In this document: piece after piece, positions 30,229 through 55,085 of the stretch | How the letters are laid out: every line of letters begins with the position of its first letter | Numbering within the stretch: the first letter of the stretch is position 1 | Assembly (NCBI GenBank): GCA_009377605.1 | Contig: WHTT01000005.1 | Coordinates: 1-64,000 of the forward strand | DNA from: Luteitalea sp. | GTDB taxonomy: Bacteria; Acidobacteriota; Vicinamibacteria; Vicinamibacterales; Vicinamibacteraceae | Direction of reading: 5' to 3' | DNA length: 64,000 bases | Position numbers and translations under genes: made by a program | The notes under the pieces: generated by a model | Seen by the model: only the letters and a program-made list of their open reading frames with translations | Databases searched by the model: none | What the model was told of the DNA's origin: nothing

Positions 30229-33168
30229 ATGCGTCGACATGTCACGCTTTTGGCTGGGAGTCTTCTGGGCATGCTCAGCCTCGTCTCGGTCCCGGCGATG
30301 CAGGTTGCTTCGCAGGACGTCGTGTCGCTCGCGGGCACCTGGCGCTTCGAGCTCGACCGCGACGACCGCGGCATCCTCGAGCACTGGTATCGGCGGTCAC
30401 TGTCGCAGCAGATCGCGCTTCCCGGCGTGCTCCAGGCACAAGGCTTCGGTGATGACGTGACACCGGCCACCGAGTGGACCGGGCAGGTTGTGGATCGCTC
30501 GTACTTCACCGCTCCGGAGTACGAGCCCTATCGCCGGCCAGGGAACATCAAGATCCCCTTCTGGCTCCAACCAGACAAGCATTACGTTGGGCCAGCCTGG
30601 TACCAGCGTGACATCGAGATTCCGGAACCGTGGCGCGGCCAGCAGGTCGTCTTGACGCTCGAGCGGCCGCACTGGCAGACGCTCGTCTGGATAGACGATC
30701 GCATCATCGGCAGTAACGATAGCCTGTCCACGCCGCATGTCTACGACCTGGGGAGAACGCTCGAGCCTGGTAAGCATCGGCTCACGGTCCGCGTCGACAA
30801 CCGGCTCATCGTGGACGTGGGCGTCAACTCGCACAGCGTGAGTGACCACACTCAGAGCAACTGGAATGGAGTCGCGGGCCGCATCGAGCTCGCGGCGACG
30901 CCAGCAGTGTGGATCGACGATCTGCAGCTCTACCCGGATGTCGACGCGAAGCTCGTGCTCGTACGTGGGAAGGTGGGCAACGCCACCGGCCGGGCCGGCC
31001 GCGGCAGCGTGCGCTTGGAGGCGGAAGGCTTCAACGTGGCGGCTCCAATTGCCGCACCCGCGCCGATGAACGTCGATGTGCAGTGGAATCGGCACGGTGG
31101 CACCTTCGAAGCTCGGTATTCGCTCGGCCGGGGCGCAAAGCTGTGGGACGAGTTCACCCCAGTGCTCTATCGCCTCACCGCGACACTCGAGCCTGGGACA
31201 GCGGCATCTGCTCCGCTTGACGCTCGAGCCCCGAACCTCGAAGCCCGCCCGTTCCCCTTTGCGGTGACGTTTGGATTGCGCCAGATTGGCGTGGAGGGCA
31301 CGCAGTTCGTCGTGAACGGCCGCAAGACGTTCTTCCGCGGCACGCTCGAGTCCGCCATCTTCCCCAAGACTGGTCATCCGCCGACGGACAAGGGATCCTG
31401 GAAGCGCATCATCAGCACCGCCAAGGCGCATGGCCTGAACATGTTTCGTTTTCACTCGTGGTGCCCGCCGGCCGCGGCATTCGAGGCAGCCGACGAGCTC
31501 GGTTTCTATCTCCAGGTGGAAGCTGGCTCCTGGGCGAATCAGTCGACGAGGCTCGGCGTAGGCTTACCGGTCGATGCCTGGATCTACAAGGAGACGGATC
31601 GGATCCTCCGCGCCTACGGAAACCATCCGTCATTCGTGCTGATGGCGTACGGCAACGAGCCGGAAGGCAACGACGAGGCGTATCTGGCGCGGTGGCTCAC
31701 GCATTACAAGGCCAAGGACCAGCGCAGACTCTACACGGCGGCATCCGGGTGGCCGCAGATTCCGGAGAACGAGTTCCACGTCACGCCGGATCCGCGCATT
31801 CAGGCCTGGGGGGCCGGTCTGAAATCGCGCGTCAACGCCCGGCCGCCGGAAACCCGGACCGATTACCGCGACTACATCCGCAAGTGGCGGGTGCCGGTGA
31901 TCAGCCACGAGATCGGTCAGTGGTGCGCGTTCCCGAACTTCGCAGAGATGCCAAAGTACACGGGATATCTCAAGCCGAGGAACTTCGAGATCTTTCGCGA
32001 GCGTCTCGACGAGCAGCAGATGGGCGGTCAGGCTCGCGAGCTCTTGCTGGCGTCGGGCAAGCTGCAGACGCTCTTGTACAAGGAAGACATCGAGTCGGCC
32101 CTCCGCACACCTGGAATGGGCGGCTTCCAGCTCCTCGACCTCCACGACTTCCCCGGCCAAGGCACCGCCCTGGTGGGTGTGCTCGACGCCTTCTGGGAAC
32201 CGAAGGGCTATGTGACAGCCGAAGAATACCGACGCTTCTGCAACAGGACCGTGCCGCTCGCTCGGCTCGAGCGGCGGGTCTTCTCGAACAGCGACACGCT
32301 CGAGGCGGTGCTCGAGGTCGCACACTTTGGACCGGCACCGCTCGCAGACGTCTCGATCACTTGGAAGCTCGTTCCCACGGAGGGCGGCGACCAGCCGGTC
32401 GCCGGGGGCAGCTTGCCGCCGCGAACGATTCCTCTGGGCAACGCTATCGCACTCGGCCGCGTCGCAGCGGATCTCCGCCAGGTGCCTGCTCCCCAACGCT
32501 ACAAGCTGGTGGTTGCGCTCGAGGGCACGCCGTTCGAAAATGACTGGGACGTGTGGGTGTACCCGGACCGTGTGGACACTCGAACGCCGCAGGCCGTCAC
32601 CATCGCCACCGACCTCGATCGCGCCACCCTGACGACACTGAGGGATGGCGGTCGCGTGCTGCTCATGATCCCGCCGAAGCGCGTCAAAGGAGATGACCGC
32701 CGGAGCGCGAAGCGCGGAGGCGGCCCGGTGGCGCTCGGCTTCTCCAGCATCTTCTGGAACACGGCGTGGACCGGTGGCCAGCCGCCGCATACGCTTGGCA
32801 TCCTCTGCGATCCCGAGCATCCTGCGCTCGCGGCGTTTCCGACCGACTACCATAGCAATTGGCAGTGGTGGTATCTCGTCACCCGGGCAGGTGCGATGCT
32901 GCTGGACGATCTCCCGTCGCAGCTCCGCCCAACCGTGCAGGTCATCGATGACTGGGTCACCAGTCGCAAGCTGGGGCTGATCTTCGAGGCGCAGGTCGCC
33001 GGCGGCCGCCTGCTCGTGACCAGTATCGACCTCCGAAAAGAGGGGGATCGCAATCTCGTGGCGCGTCAGATGCTGCACAGCCTGCTTACGTACATGGCCA
33101 GCAATCGCTTTCGGCCGGACGTGGAGATAACGCCCGAGCAGGTCAAGGGCTTGATAGCAGATCCATGA
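30229..33168 (+). CDS. Glycoside hydrolase family 2-like enzyme (beta-galactosidase type), secreted
   Basis: A 979-residue protein with signal peptide MRRHVTLLAGSLLGMLSLVS. An N-terminal jelly-roll (SLAGTWRFELDRDDRG, ALPGVLQAQG, YVGPAWYQRDIEIPEPW) precedes Ig-like domains and a TIM barrel. The barrel has the acid/base Glu477 in MAYGNEPEGN and the likely nucleophile Glu561 in VISHEIGQW. The C-terminal part resembles a sugar-binding domain. It should hydrolyse a beta-linked glycoside in the periplasm or outside the cell. ATG 30229 was chosen because AAAGGGAG precedes it; a GTG at 30214 would add five residues. It overlaps the LacI gene by ATGA. Confidence 0.88.
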   Translation: MRRHVTLLAGSLLGMLSLVSVPAMQVASQDVVSLAGTWRFELDRDDRGILEHWYRRSLSQQIALPGVLQAQGFGDDVTPATEWTGQVVDRSYFTAPEYEPYRRPGNIKIPFWLQPDKHYVGPAWYQRDIEIPEPWRGQQVVLTLERPHWQTLVWIDDRIIGSNDSLSTPHVYDLGRTLEPGKHRLTVRVDNRLIVDVGVNSHSVSDHTQSNWNGVAGRIELAATPAVWIDDLQLYPDVDAKLVLVRGKVGNATGRAGRGSVRLEAEGFNVAAPIAAPAPMNVDVQWNRHGGTFEARYSLGRGAKLWDEFTPVLYRLTATLEPGTAASAPLDARAPNLEARPFPFAVTFGLRQIGVEGTQFVVNGRKTFFRGTLESAIFPKTGHPPTDKGSWKRIISTAKAHGLNMFRFHSWCPPAAAFEAADELGFYLQVEAGSWANQSTRLGVGLPVDAWIYKETDRILRAYGNHPSFVLMAYGNEPEGNDEAYLARWLTHYKAKDQRRLYTAASGWPQIPENEFHVTPDPRIQAWGAGLKSRVNARPPETRTDYRDYIRKWRVPVISHEIGQWCAFPNFAEMPKYTGYLKPRNFEIFRERLDEQQMGGQARELLLASGKLQTLLYKEDIESALRTPGMGGFQLLDLHDFPGQGTALVGVLDAFWEPKGYVTAEEYRRFCNRTVPLARLERRVFSNSDTLEAVLEVAHFGPAPLADVSITWKLVPTEGGDQPVAGGSLPPRTIPLGNAIALGRVAADLRQVPAPQRYKLVVALEGTPFENDWDVWVYPDRVDTRTPQAVTIATDLDRATLTTLRDGGRVLLMIPPKRVKGDDRRSAKRGGGPVALGFSSIFWNTAWTGGQPPHTLGILCDPEHPALAAFPTDYHSNWQWWYLVTRAGAMLLDDLPSQLRPTVQVIDDWVTSRKLGLIFEAQVAGGRLLVTSIDLRKEGDRNLVARQMLHSLLTYMASNRFRPDVEITPEQVKGLIADP

Positions 33169-34295
33169 GCGCGCGCAAGCGAGTCGGGCCGACGAGGCCA
33201 TCGAGACCGGCGGGAATTCGTGAGATCGCGAAGGCGCTGAATGTTTCGATCGGCACGGTCGATCGTGCGCTGCACGATCGCGGCCGCATCAGTCCTCTCA
33301 CCCGCCGCAAGGTCTTGAGGATGGCGGAGCGGTTGGGATACCGCCCCAACTTGGCGGCACGCTACTTGTCGTCCAAACGGGAGATGCGCATCGCGTATTG
33401 CCTCCCTCGCGAGGTGGCATCGTTCTTCGAGCTGGTCGCCGACGGGATCACTGCCGCGGCGGGCGCGTTGGAGGCCAGCGGCGTCGTGCTCGTGCATCAT
33501 TCCTATTCGCGGCTGGGTCACGGCGAAGCTCGCGCGGTCGAACGGGCGCTGACAGACGACATCCACGGGCTAATCATCGCGCCGGGCCGGCCGGACAGGC
33601 TCGAGCCGCTCATCCATCGAGCCGCCAGCCGAGGGATCCCGACCCTGTGCGTCTCGACGGACGCGCCAAACACCGAGCGCCTCGCGGCCGTCTCCGTCGA
33701 CCCGACCACGAGCGGATCGCTCGTCGCCGAGCTGATGGGGCGATTCCTCAAAGGCAGCGGCAAAGTGATCGTGGTCACGGGGTCGCTGAACACCATGGAT
33801 CATGCCGGCAAGCTGGAGGGCTTTCGCCGGGCGACCGATGAGATCTGGCCCAACGTACGGATCGCGTCCATCGTCGAGGCGCACGACAACGAGGCCGAGG
33901 CGTACGACAAATGTCTGAAGGTGCTCACGGACCAGCCGGATGTTGCCGGCGTGTACGTCAGTACGGCCAACTCGCTTCCTGTGATCGAGGCAATCGAGCG
34001 CCGTGGGCTGTCTGAAGTCACGCTGATCACGACTGACCTGTTTCCCGCGCTCGTCCCGCTCATCGAGTCTGGAAGGATCGCGGCAACGATGCATCAGCGC
34101 GCGTGGACACAGGGCCGGGTTGCGCTCCAGAATCTCCACCGCTTCTTGGTGGAGCACATCTCACCCCCCGACCATGTGCGCCTCTCACCCCACATCGTCA
34201 TGAAGAGCAACCTGAAGCTGTTTCTCGATCGCATCCAGCAGGGTCGGGAATCGGGATTCAGGATTCAGGATTCATTACGGAACTTGACGGAATGA
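33165..34295 (+). CDS. LacI-family transcriptional regulator
   Basis: A 376-residue regulator. Its helix-turn-helix and hinge lie at about 17-70 (GIREIAKALNVSIGTVDRAL... LGYRPNLAARYLSSK). A periplasmic-binding-protein-like effector domain follows (about 75-350) with the type IV sugar-binding pattern (VYVSTANSLPVIEAIERRG). It is translated with the GH2 gene through ATGA and probably controls this locus in response to a sugar. The last 16 residues (RESGFRIQDSLRNLTE) are encoded by three tandem GGATTCA heptamers and their flank at 34247-34275, so the natural C-terminus may have been replaced by a repeat. Confidence 0.92.
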   Translation: MSARKRVGPTRPSRPAGIREIAKALNVSIGTVDRALHDRGRISPLTRRKVLRMAERLGYRPNLAARYLSSKREMRIAYCLPREVASFFELVADGITAAAGALEASGVVLVHHSYSRLGHGEARAVERALTDDIHGLIIAPGRPDRLEPLIHRAASRGIPTLCVSTDAPNTERLAAVSVDPTTSGSLVAELMGRFLKGSGKVIVVTGSLNTMDHAGKLEGFRRATDEIWPNVRIASIVEAHDNEAEAYDKCLKVLTDQPDVAGVYVSTANSLPVIEAIERRGLSEVTLITTDLFPALVPLIESGRIAATMHQRAWTQGRVALQNLHRFLVEHISPPDHVRLSPHIVMKSNLKLFLDRIQQGRESGFRIQDSLRNLTE

Positions 34296-34373
34296 TCCCT
34301 CTTCCGCTAGGCGCTCACCCCCTGAAATCGGGTGCTCCGCAGAATATTTTTGACATCTGGCAGACTTTTGTGC

Positions 34374-34401
34374 TTGACACCAAAATTTTCTCATCCATAA
34401 T
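34374..34401 (+). promoter_or_regulatory. Promoter of the first AKK microgene
   Basis: Perfect TTGACA at 34374-34379 and CATAAT at 34396-34401 with a 16-base spacer, in a local AT-rich island (34340-34430). A second TTGACA lies at 34350-34355. The expected transcript has a leader of about 85 bases before ATG 34492. Confidence 0.7.
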
Positions 34402-34491
34402 CTACATCTTGTATGACGGCGACAAGCTCAATCCATCTGTAGTGCCGCGTTTGGGCACAAGGGCTGAGCTTGCGCTTTCCAAGGAGGCAGA

Positions 34492-34554
34492 ATGGCCAAG
34501 AAAGCAGCCAAGAAGGCAGCGAAGAAGGCGAAGAAGGCTGCCAAGAAGCGCTAA
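34492..34554 (+). CDS. AKK microprotein 1: 20-residue Lys/Ala-rich peptide
   Basis: Reads M-AKKAAKK-AAKKAKK-AAKKR, so 10 of 20 residues are Lys and the last is Arg. A textbook Shine-Dalgarno AAGGAGG (34481-34487) lies 4 bases before the ATG. A consensus-like promoter lies 90-118 bases upstream and a strong terminator 27 bases downstream, so this is a complete minimal gene. The composition is that of a histone H1 tail or Hc1-like nucleoid peptide; binding to DNA or RNA is an inference. A second, similar gene follows at 34755. No family name is known to me. Confidence 0.75.
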   Translation: MAKKAAKKAAKKAKKAAKKR

Positions 34555-34580
34555 GCGAACGACTCGCTCGACGCTTCCTC

Positions 34581-34614
34581 AGGGTGTCGCCGCAGTGTGC
34601 GACACCCTTCCTTC
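34581..34614 (+). terminator. Intrinsic terminator after AKK microprotein 1
   Basis: AGGGTGTCGC (34581-34590) pairs perfectly with GCGACACCCT (34599-34608), with an 8-base loop and a TTCCTTC tail. Confidence 0.8.
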
Positions 34615-34754
34615 GCACTAGATGCCCAGCGTGGCATCGCGTATCGGGAGCGCTGATCCATCGGCGGCACACAATGGTCACGGGAGTGACAGCCGCGTGG
34701 GTGGGTCAGGAGCTGCTCTCGTGTTGGACACCCTAGTGAAAGGGGGTACAGGTC

Positions 34755-34808
34755 ATGGCCAAGAAAACGGGCAAGAAAACGGCCAAGAAGGCGGCCAAGA
34801 AGAAGTAG
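34755..34808 (+). CDS. AKK microprotein 2: 17-residue Lys-rich peptide
   Basis: Reads M-AKKTGKK-TAKKAAKKK with 9 Lys of 17. It begins MAKK like microprotein 1 and keeps the same K-K spacing, so the two are probably paralogues. AAAGGGGG (34738-34745) is a plausible ribosome site 9 bases upstream, and a strong terminator follows 23 bases after the stop. No clear separate promoter was found in 34615-34750, so it may depend on read-through past the first terminator or on a non-consensus promoter. Confidence 0.65.
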   Translation: MAKKTGKKTAKKAAKKK

Positions 34809-34831
34809 CGCCCCTACGTGGTTCGCCGCAC

Positions 34832-34864
34832 AGGGGGCGGCCGTCGCCCCCTTTCTCTCTCTCT
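34832..34864 (+). terminator. Intrinsic terminator after AKK microprotein 2
   Basis: AGGGGGCG (34832-34839) pairs with CGCCCCCT (34845-34852) around a GCCGT loop, followed by TTTCTCTCTCTCTC. It also ends transcription toward the convergent HEAT/cyclophilin gene. The flank 34880-34912 carries a small gagctct / gagtcct 7-mer run. Confidence 0.85.
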
Positions 34865-34909
34865 CCAATCCCTTCCGTGAGTTTTGAGCTCTGGGCTCTG
34901 AGTCCTGAG

Positions 34910-37129
34910 TCAATTACCGGTCATCGACTCCCCATCCCAAACACGGACGCGCTTGATGACGTCCCATTGCTGTAGCGCGTCGACGATCTCCATGCCATCG
35001 ACGACGTGGCCGAAAACCGTGTAGCGGCCGTCGAGATGCGGCTGAGGGGTGTGCGTCACGAACCACTGGCTGCCTCCAGTGTCCGCCCAGGGGTCGAGCG
35101 CCATGCCGAGCGTGCCGCGGGCGAACGGCCGCGTGCTCAGCTCATCGCGAATCGTATAGCCAGGCCCGCCTTCTCCATCGCCCCGCGGGTCGCCGTCCTG
35201 CACGACGAAGTTGGCAACGACGCGGTGAATACGGGCGTTCTCGAAAAAGCCCTTTTGCGCCAGGCTGATGAAGTTGGCAACCGTCAGCGGTGCGTTGACG
35301 GGATCGAGCTGAACTTGAATGGTGCCGCGGTTCGTTTCGATGTACGCCTGAGGCGAGAACGTGGGTTGCACGAGCTCCGGTGCGTCGTACTCCGCACGTG
35401 GTCGCGTGACCGGTGCCGGGCGTATGCGTGAGACGTCTGCGCTCGGATCGAGCTTCTGCAGCAGCTCGGCGGCCCGGACCCGCACAGCCCAGTCCTTGTC
35501 GCCAAGCGCATCGCCAAGCCATTCGCGCGCCGTGGTGGTGTCCAGCGCGGCCAATGACTCGAGCGCGGCAGCTCGCGCGCCGTATCCAGCGTCCGCCTTG
35601 GCGACGCGGTACGCGGCGACCAGCGCGGGCACCGCCTTCTTCATCGTATGCTCCTGTGCCAGCCTCGCAGCCGCTATCCGGACGCCCATGTCTTGATGTT
35701 CCAGATGGGTGAGAACGAGCTCCTCGAGGTCGGGCGCATCAATCGCGGCGAGCGCACGCAGCACTGCGGGGATGACGCGGGCATCCTCATCTTTCAACAC
35801 CTCGTGGAGCCGGGGTGCCGCCACGTCGGCCGGCAGCGAGCTGAGCGCGGTGGCAAGGGCGGCCCGAACCACCCACTCGCGGTCACGGTCGAGCCCCGAG
35901 AGGATGATGAAGAACTCTTCGGGTCTGATGGCGGCGAGCGCGCGAATCGCGGCGGCGCGCATCGCTGGCCACGGATCCTGGACGAAATCGAGGATCGCGT
36001 CGTAGGCCGGATCGCTCTTCAGTGTCGCGAGCGCCTCGATGACCTCGAGCTGCAACTGATTCTGATTCGCCGCCGGCCGACCGCCACCATCGTCCGGTGC
36101 GCTCGCCGAGCGCGCCGCACTAGGAGCTGCCTCAGGAGCCGTACGGGGCGGCGGCGCCAGTAGCGGCAACAGCGCGTCCACCGCCTTCGGATCCCCGATC
36201 TCTGCGACTGCTCTCACGGCAGCGATCTGGACACCAACCGTCGGGCCCTTCCCTTGCACGAGCGGCAGCAGAACGTCGAGCGCACCAGCCTCCTCGAGCT
36301 CGCCAAGACCTCGCACGGCAAACGCCGCCGTATAGGCGTTTTGGTCACCGGCAAGCGTCAGGAGCGCCGGTAGGGCGCGAGCGTCACCGATACGCTGCAG
36401 CGCGTATGCGACAGGCCACCAGCGCAGCGTCGGCTGTCCTTGCGCATCGAGCACCAGCGCTGCCAGCGACTCATACGCGTCGAGCCGCACGAGCGCGCAC
36501 AGTCCGAGACGCACGGCATCCGCTTCTGCGGGAACCTCCAGCGCATCGTCGGGCGGCACCTGCTCGAGCGCGCCGGCAGCGAGATGGGCGCTCACCATGC
36601 CGCCAATCGCCTCGGCGCTGCTCTGAGCGGCTTCACCGATGAGCCCCAGCGCCTCAGCCGCTCGCCCTTGCACTCGCGCATCCGGATCGGCCAGCGCGCT
36701 GGTCAGCGGTGCTACGCCGTCAGGGACGCCAATGAGGCCCAAGCCGAAAGAAGCGATTGCGCGGACCGCCGGATCCGGATCCTTCAGCGCCGCAGTCAAT
36801 GGCGCCACGCCCTCGGGCTCGCCGATCCGACCGATAGCAAGTGCGGCGCGCCAACGTAAGCGCGCCTCGGAGTGCTGAAGCAAGGCCGGGAGATCCGCGG
36901 GTGCAGTCGGCGGTTCGACACTGTCCTGCGCCTCTGGCGTTCGGCCGGCGCCAGGCTCCTTGGGCGCAGGCGCCGCGGACGCGGGATCTCGAAGCACCCG
37001 CTGATCTTCCAGCCACAAGATCGTGCCCATGTGCTGTTCGATGGTCACCACAGGAGCTGGCGGCGCCGGTGGCGCGCTCGCGCACCCGGCGGCGAGCAAG
37101 GCAACTATCCCCCACGATCTCGCACGCAT
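34910..37129 (-). CDS. HEAT-repeat lipoprotein fused to a cyclophilin-type peptidyl-prolyl isomerase
   Basis: A 739-residue lipoprotein: signal MRARSWGIVALLAAGC (lipobox, Cys16), then about 550 residues of HEAT repeats (LLQHSEARLRWRAALAIGRIGEPEG, PDPAVRAIASFGLGLIG and others). The C-terminal cyclophilin domain spans about 580-739 (IETNRGTIQVQLDPVNAPLTV, FENARIHRVVANFVVQDGDP, WFVTHTPQPHLDGRYTVFG). The combination suggests an envelope-anchored folding helper that docks on client proteins. The active-site Arg of cyclophilin is present in IHRVV. ATG 37127-37129 was preferred to an ATG 11 codons upstream because GAGG precedes it and it gives a compact signal. Convergent with the AKK genes. Confidence 0.85.
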   Translation of the reverse strand: MRARSWGIVALLAAGCASAPPAPPAPVVTIEQHMGTILWLEDQRVLRDPASAAPAPKEPGAGRTPEAQDSVEPPTAPADLPALLQHSEARLRWRAALAIGRIGEPEGVAPLTAALKDPDPAVRAIASFGLGLIGVPDGVAPLTSALADPDARVQGRAAEALGLIGEAAQSSAEAIGGMVSAHLAAGALEQVPPDDALEVPAEADAVRLGLCALVRLDAYESLAALVLDAQGQPTLRWWPVAYALQRIGDARALPALLTLAGDQNAYTAAFAVRGLGELEEAGALDVLLPLVQGKGPTVGVQIAAVRAVAEIGDPKAVDALLPLLAPPPRTAPEAAPSAARSASAPDDGGGRPAANQNQLQLEVIEALATLKSDPAYDAILDFVQDPWPAMRAAAIRALAAIRPEEFFIILSGLDRDREWVVRAALATALSSLPADVAAPRLHEVLKDEDARVIPAVLRALAAIDAPDLEELVLTHLEHQDMGVRIAAARLAQEHTMKKAVPALVAAYRVAKADAGYGARAAALESLAALDTTTAREWLGDALGDKDWAVRVRAAELLQKLDPSADVSRIRPAPVTRPRAEYDAPELVQPTFSPQAYIETNRGTIQVQLDPVNAPLTVANFISLAQKGFFENARIHRVVANFVVQDGDPRGDGEGGPGYTIRDELSTRPFARGTLGMALDPWADTGGSQWFVTHTPQPHLDGRYTVFGHVVDGMEIVDALQQWDVIKRVRVWDGESMTGN

Positions 37130-37182
37130 GTGGAATCCTCGCAGTCGACGCGTCATGGTCACGGCGACAGCATCCTATCAAA

Positions 37183-53120: not shown

Positions 53121-55085
<1,965 letters not shown>

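Follow-up and report, generated by a model that had tools for sequence, protein, structure and literature searches.

Two tandem microgenes, ORF A and ORF B, located in a 64,000-nucleotide stretch of a Luteitalea sp. contig (the window), encode lysine-rich peptides and form a locus that is conserved across the order Vicinamibacterales in its promoter, leader, reading frames and terminators. The peptides retain a common composition and are constrained at the peptide level, and the locus is a real gene pair rather than low-complexity noise. On balance, we lean towards regarding the peptides as free-standing polycations, similar in kind to the tail of histone H1, that would bind polyanions, with DNA and/or RNA as the first candidates.

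Two lysine-rich microgenes in tandem

The locus lies between a LacI-family regulator, which stands outside the microgene unit, and a convergent gene for a HEAT-repeat protein with a cyclophilin domain (Table 1). ORF B starts 200 bases beyond the stop codon of ORF A, exactly where the initial annotation had described a second MAKK frame. The two frames share the spacing of their first three lysine pairs; the proposal that they keep a common KK spacing fails at the fourth pair, which is shifted by one residue in ORF A. A pattern of three lysine pairs with two-codon spacing occurs three times in the window, always within ORFs A and B, and not once in 100 shuffles. In the whole genome of this organism, MAKKxxKK is found only at the ORF A and ORF B sites, with no occurrence of the reversed-pattern control.

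Both frames are preceded by candidate ribosome-binding sites. AGGAGG-type sites also lie upstream of ORF A in other genomes, and GAAGGGGGGGAT or a variant of it stands upstream of ORF B across families. This element resembles an extended, G-rich Shine-Dalgarno sequence; a search of the assembly for the pattern of the 16S tail, to which it might pair, returned no match. The hairpin downstream of ORF B is G+C-rich, begins approximately 24 bases 3′ of the stop codon and is followed by a T/C-rich tail, in agreement with the earlier claim that this frame has a terminator of its own.

Table 1 Features of the microgene locus and its neighbours, with positions in the window.
Feature	Position	Strand	Description
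LacI-family regulator (upstream neighbour)	33165–34295	+	Pfam PF13407, PF00356; outside the microgene unit
Promoter	34374–34401	+	TTGACA-N16-CATAAT; 11 of 12 consensus matches; within the conserved block TTTGTGCTTGACA...CATAATCTACATCTTGTATG
Leader (5′ UTR) of ORF A	34408–34491	+	Conserved in alignments A2 and A3; start site predicted from the −10 position
Shine-Dalgarno sequence of ORF A	34481–34487	+	AAGGAGG; read directly
ORF A (upstream microgene)	34492–34554	+	MAKKAAKKAAKKAKKAAKKR, 20 aa; read directly and translated
Terminator-like hairpin after ORF A	34581–34614	+	AGGGTGTCG...CGACACCCT, then TTCCTT; z = −2.58 against shuffles
A–B spacer	34615–34739	+	Without a recognisable promoter
G-rich ribosome-binding element of ORF B	34740–34746	+	AAGGGGG; read directly; eight bases upstream of the start
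ORF B (second microgene)	34755–34808	+	MAKKTGKKTAKKAAKKK, 17 codons plus stop; read directly and translated
Terminator-like hairpin after ORF B	34832–34862	+	AGGGGGCG...CGCCCCCT (34832–34852), T/C-rich tail TTTCTCTCTC
HEAT-repeat protein with C-terminal cyclophilin domain (convergent downstream neighbour)	34910–37162	−	Pfam HEAT_2, Pro_isomerase

The locus is conserved across Vicinamibacterales

A pattern search of 60 relatives recovered the motif in 21 genomes, compared with 3 for the reversed control. The loci obtained were mostly ORFs of 17–26 aa, often in tandem, with a common promoter block TTTGTGCTTGACA-N16-CATAATCTACATCTTGTATG upstream. We then used model R1 (alignment A2), which spans 111 positions of promoter and leader and contains no reading frame. 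Because 18 of the 26 genomes from which R1 was derived had first been found through the ORF pattern, the 107 other genomes constitute its independent test. R1 matched 133 of 162 Vicinamibacterales genomes, including 89 of the 100 good ones, and covered 75 of 86 genera. Nearly all of these genomes have a single match; in the Luteitalea genome R1 hits 34366–34456 (E = 2.9e-21). In the rest of the phylum, it matched none of 40 genomes, of which four belong to the same class. R1 was likewise without a match in 29 of the 162 genomes of the order, and laxer filters on 20 of these recovered none (0/20). Near-complete genomes from part of family f8 (e.g. G051, G498 and G499) are among the R1-negative ones.

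At least one lysine-rich microgene (start MA(K/R), 12–80 aa, rich in lysine) was present at 133 of 133 R1 loci, including all 107 from genomes not used for R1, whereas the same test yielded 0/133 on the reverse strand and 0/116 in sequence windows of unrelated loci. In support of the loci being orthologous, a convergent cyclophilin motif lies downstream in 107 of the 126 genomes with sufficient sequence, although none was found in the 8 genomes of family f14 examined.

The tandem pair occurs in 70 of the 133 genomes (one with a third ORF), while 42 carry the second gene only and 21 the first gene only, some of the latter loci running to the end of a contig. ORF B is the sole frame in 25 of 27 genomes of family f5 and in 13 of 13 of f10; ORF A is the sole frame in 13 of 13 of f8, where it takes the form of an H1-like ORF of 35–65 aa. 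Loci with a single frame, which the initial annotation had named as a finding that would speak against selection on the peptides, do occur in these three families, yet the remaining frame is kept, and we therefore interpret them as lineage-specific loss. Of the first gene, the f11 genomes G036, G053 and G026 retain a decayed remnant in which ACGGCGAAGAGC replaces ATGGCGAAGAAG. At the second position of G031 (L032, approximately 1692–1850), we found a 52-aa H1-like ORF, MAKTVAKKAAVKKAAPKK..., with the C-terminal sequence KGCKAC.

In genus g26 of family f14, a further promoter–leader copy stands upstream of an ftsZ-like gene, the gene being identified by eye (L167, L170, L174 and L175). This copy suggests a portable, growth-linked module. 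The four second promoter matches were left out of the architecture, terminator, cyclophilin and ORF-test counts.

Selection acts on the peptides

The 196 classified peptides, a set from which the classifier left out the second ORF at seven two-ORF loci and the third ORF in G033, are mostly 14–29 residues long (range 14–65 aa) and contain approximately 54% Lys+Arg. Lysine accounts for 49% of residues, alanine for 28%, glycine for 7% and proline for 0.8%, with no aspartate or glutamate; beyond Met1, only two residues in the whole set are L, I, M, F, W, Y or C. The peptides have a net charge of approximately +9 to +11 and no bulky hydrophobic residue. They start with MAKK in 191 of 196 cases and end with KKR or KKK in 192.

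The comparison of synonymous with non-synonymous change across orthologous loci, as suggested in the initial annotation, revealed far lower non-synonymous change in 14 of 17 family/length groups, with pN/pS between 0 and 0.36. The exceptions were the 18-aa A peptides of f2 (0.90), the 17-aa B peptides of f5 (0.48) and the 14-aa B peptides of f2 (0.47). In addition, the A and B peptides are identical in 18 of 63 two-gene genomes, although their DNA differs at 3–9 sites. The excess of pS over pN, the complete lack of acidic residues and these identical peptides from differing DNA together indicate that the peptide is under selection. That much of the original argument from conserved lysine positions stands; the positions themselves are held within families and drift across the order, where the constants are the composition, the MAKK start and the KKR or KKK end.

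These data also bear on the idea that the locus is functionless low-complexity DNA produced by slippage of AAG-AAG-GCN units, to which we attach next to no credence. The sequence is indeed repetitive and its length changes between families, but the promoter, ribosome-binding site and terminator are conserved order-wide, and slippage does not agree with identical A and B peptides encoded by differing DNA. Given the shuffles in the window, and a frame at every one of the 107 independent loci with none in the controls, we rejected chance or repeat slippage.

Synonymous sites are constrained as well, so that the claim of constraint not on the DNA alone holds with a qualification: in f5, f10 and f15, they have diverged approximately one-third to one-half as far as those of the adjacent cyclophilin gene in the same genomes. 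Specifically, pS was 0.187 versus 0.548 for B in f5, 0.187 versus 0.533 for B in f10 and 0.256 versus 0.530 for A in f15, with A and B of f2 mostly closer to the cyclophilin. Most third positions in f5 are invariant over 23 genomes, including AAA at codon 4. This pattern would follow from the codon preference of a highly expressed gene, from an RNA-level constraint close to the start codon or from the two together. Since synonymous sites are also constrained, a role of the RNA may coexist with that of the peptide.

One promoter and probable read-through

Scanning positions 34250–35000 for sigma-70-like promoters returned the one upstream of ORF A as the sole candidate, and across the order this main promoter was recognised by the spacer-scan method in 115 of 133 loci. 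In the B-only families, the same promoter stands upstream of B. The initial annotation had anticipated two separate short transcripts, which our data do not support: promoter-like sites occur in only 2 of 70 A–B spacers (median length 193.5 nt), compared with 0.8 expected from shuffling, so that a separate promoter for ORF B finds no support. Terminator-like hairpins follow the last ORF at 58 of the 60 loci with one ORF and at 65 of the 69 with two, and at 56 of these 69 a hairpin follows the first ORF; the shuffled control over all sites gave 5 of 201. The terminator and promoter scans used simple scripts and single-base shuffles. ORF B has a terminator, but the scans revealed no promoter specific to it, so that it is probably reached through read-through, and the simplest reading of these elements is probably one promoter giving a short A transcript and a read-through A–B transcript. 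Separately, we considered the −35 region as a general promoter element of this genome and rejected it, since TTGTGCTTGACA with up to one mismatch occurs at 19 sites versus 11 for the reversed control.

The succession of a run of lysine codons, a terminator and a second gene recalls an attenuator. Classic amino-acid attenuators consist of a codon run, a terminator and then the regulated gene, and ORF A might correspondingly be a leader peptide whose lysine codons sense charged tRNA-Lys and set read-through at the first hairpin. We consider this very improbable. Beyond the terminator there is just a second lysine-rich microgene with its own terminator and then, in 107 of 126 genomes, a gene of convergent orientation; no lysine synthesis or transport gene, and no co-oriented biosynthetic or transport gene of the kind expected, stands downstream, and both B-only and A-only families exist.

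The leader contains, in many genomes, a GGTGG/CCACC hairpin with a conserved GCTCAG loop, with compensating changes in a few lineages (alignment A3). For the hand-defined hairpin, counted over 100 of the 137 promoter-bearing loci, 80.8% of cells were paired and 17 were compensated, compared with 5.2 in shuffles, while 2 pairs were changed on both sides, compared with 2.6 in shuffles. Covariation support for this hairpin in the order is moderate, and it does not appear clearly formed in the Luteitalea genome itself. RNAalifold yielded no consensus structure of the leader, either on 18 sequences or on the transcribed part of 100. Rfam returned nothing at gathering score at the locus, with three chance-level matches (E = 0.48–3.7); the only match of the window at gathering score is a TPP riboswitch at 54915–55023 on the reverse strand.

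One could take the RNA, with its leader and two hairpins, as the functional product and the lysine-rich frames as secondary. The leader persists in f10 genomes that have no ORF A, the synonymous sites of B in f5 and f10 are some threefold less diverged than the neighbouring cyclophilin, and the compensated cells described above point in the same direction. We nevertheless judge this account quite unlikely, as the frames are present at all 133 loci with pN far below pS, and neither the RNAalifold analysis, the count of pairs changed on both sides nor the Rfam search provides support for it.

Similar microgenes outside the order

To place the peptides in a wider context, we searched for the exact 17-aa form in bacteria and archaea, with one genome for each of 84,980 species, and obtained 24 stretches. 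Fifteen were titled Acidobacteria, Acidobacteriota, Vicinamibacteria or Vicinamibacterales, and two more matched this order despite other titles; the others comprised three from Phycisphaerales, two from Betaproteobacteria, one from Desulfurococcales and one other. Stand-alone 17-aa lysine-rich ORFs outside Acidobacteriota were seen in Phycisphaerales (L187, L190 and L207), in Betaproteobacteria (L189 and L200) and in L201. Those of Phycisphaerales and Betaproteobacteria, such as MAKKKAKKKAKKKSKKR and MAKKKAKKAAKKKAKKK, are likewise 17 aa long, with a ribosome-binding site and a hairpin, but they are single genes with different promoters, and the tandem pair was not seen. In the order to which one of the betaproteobacterial cases belongs, a similar pattern occurs in 4 of 120 genomes. 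The microgenes of the two groups probably have independent origins, and such genes probably arose more than once.

A proposed role as polycationic microproteins

We propose that the locus would be a two-gene unit of stand-alone polycationic microproteins that resemble the Lys/Ala tail of histone-H1-like proteins, with no attached domain. A single strong sigma-70-type promoter would give rise to a transcript of approximately 200 nt, containing ORF A and terminated at the first hairpin. Through incomplete termination, the polymerase would reach ORF B, which would be translated from a strong G-rich ribosome-binding site, and transcription would end at the second hairpin. Through their charge, the peptides would then bind polyanions, with DNA and/or RNA as the most likely targets, and might act as small condensing or counter-ion proteins. 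This reading is based on the match in composition with the Lys/Ala tails of H1-like proteins, with Hc2 and AlgP as precedents. The lack of a hydrophobic face and of a signal sequence would argue against a membrane-active or secreted role.

The main rival to polyanion binding is a ribosome-associated role, in which the peptides would be small basic proteins of the bTHX/SRA kind, synthesised in relation to growth and bound to rRNA, with no function in the nucleoid. bTHX and SRA are very small, almost purely basic ribosomal proteins, and lysine-rich disordered tails are typical of ribosomal proteins. The peptides described here are similarly tiny and all-basic, their promoter and ribosome-binding sites suggest strong expression, and the promoter-leader copy at the ftsZ-like gene of g26 points to growth-linked control. 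They differ from bTHX and SRA in showing no sequence match, in being made up of A, K and G only and in their large length range; a spread from 14 to 65 aa would be unusual for a ribosomal protein. Moreover, the short forms match no Pfam or NCBIfam model, and the pair is flanked by the genes for a LacI-family regulator and a cyclophilin and does not belong to a ribosomal operon. We therefore consider a ribosomal role unlikely.

If translated, the polycationic peptides would be among the smallest widely conserved bacterial proteins, encoded behind a conserved promoter in about four-fifths of the genomes of a large order. The small-protein literature indicates that annotation usually misses genes of such shortness. 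They would also provide a test of how little sequence a histone-tail-like function needs, with charge and composition kept while positions drift, and the lineages in which one copy was lost or lengthened would serve as natural experiments on dose and length. A broader proposal, which we put forward tentatively and with some doubt, is that Vicinamibacterales use an order-wide pair of stand-alone histone-tail microproteins, down to 14 residues, as general nucleic-acid counter-ions, and that f8 has been growing one of them into an H1-like protein of 35–65 residues. If so, these peptides would rank with the shortest known conserved proteins that associate with chromatin or RNA, and f8 would make visible a route connecting a microgene with a histone-H1-like protein.

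Comparison with known systems

A full-text literature search for the peptide strings returned only unrelated contexts, and topic searches returned nothing either, within a coverage outside which most subscription papers fall. The analogy with H1 is drawn from composition, because the short peptides match no family model. Against HC2 (PF07382, cut-off 40 bits), ORF A gave no match and two long relatives scored 21.5 and 19.1 bits; the Luteitalea genome gave three weak matches, all under the cut-off, and lysine-density filters applied to such weak matches elsewhere in this genome (L226 and L228) returned nothing. The weak matches of the long forms in f8 and G031 extend to H1-like models, again below the curated cut-offs, and a PDB sequence search with a 65-aa relative retrieved only weak matches to histone H2B tails (best E = 0.046).

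The closest parallels are Hc2 and Hc2-like proteins (PF07382; NF038052, NF038053; BpH1 of Bordetella). Chlamydia Hc2 is reported to bind DNA and RNA, and its lysine-rich repeats vary its length (PMC2848022). Like these proteins, the peptides have repeats rich in Lys and Ala, in which V, T and P serve as minor spacers, an evenly spread positive charge and a variable length, and the 196 classified peptides show the HC2 trait of lysine-rich repeats with even positive charge and without acidic residues. Size sets them apart: Hc2 of C. trachomatis is given as 165–237 aa (PMC2848022), compared with 14–65 aa, and mostly 14–29 aa, here. The present system is also distinguished by its two tandem genes behind a conserved promoter and by its occurrence in bacteria of soil and water.

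A second parallel is provided by the KPAA tails of AlgP and PhaF in Pseudomonas, which are likewise Lys/Ala-rich, disordered and similar to the H1 tail. The H1-tail-like repeat domain of AlgP is reported to be required for the spacing of polyP granules, and DNA binding and the organisation of polyP or PHA granules are reported for tails of this type (PMC9239181). In AlgP and PhaF, however, the tail forms the C-terminal end of a larger protein whose N-terminal domain is helical, and single lysines are spaced by PAA, whereas the peptides described here are stand-alone, carry KK doublets and no other domain and contain less than 1% proline. On the tests made, the peptides fall outside the HC2 family; they may work like H1 tails.
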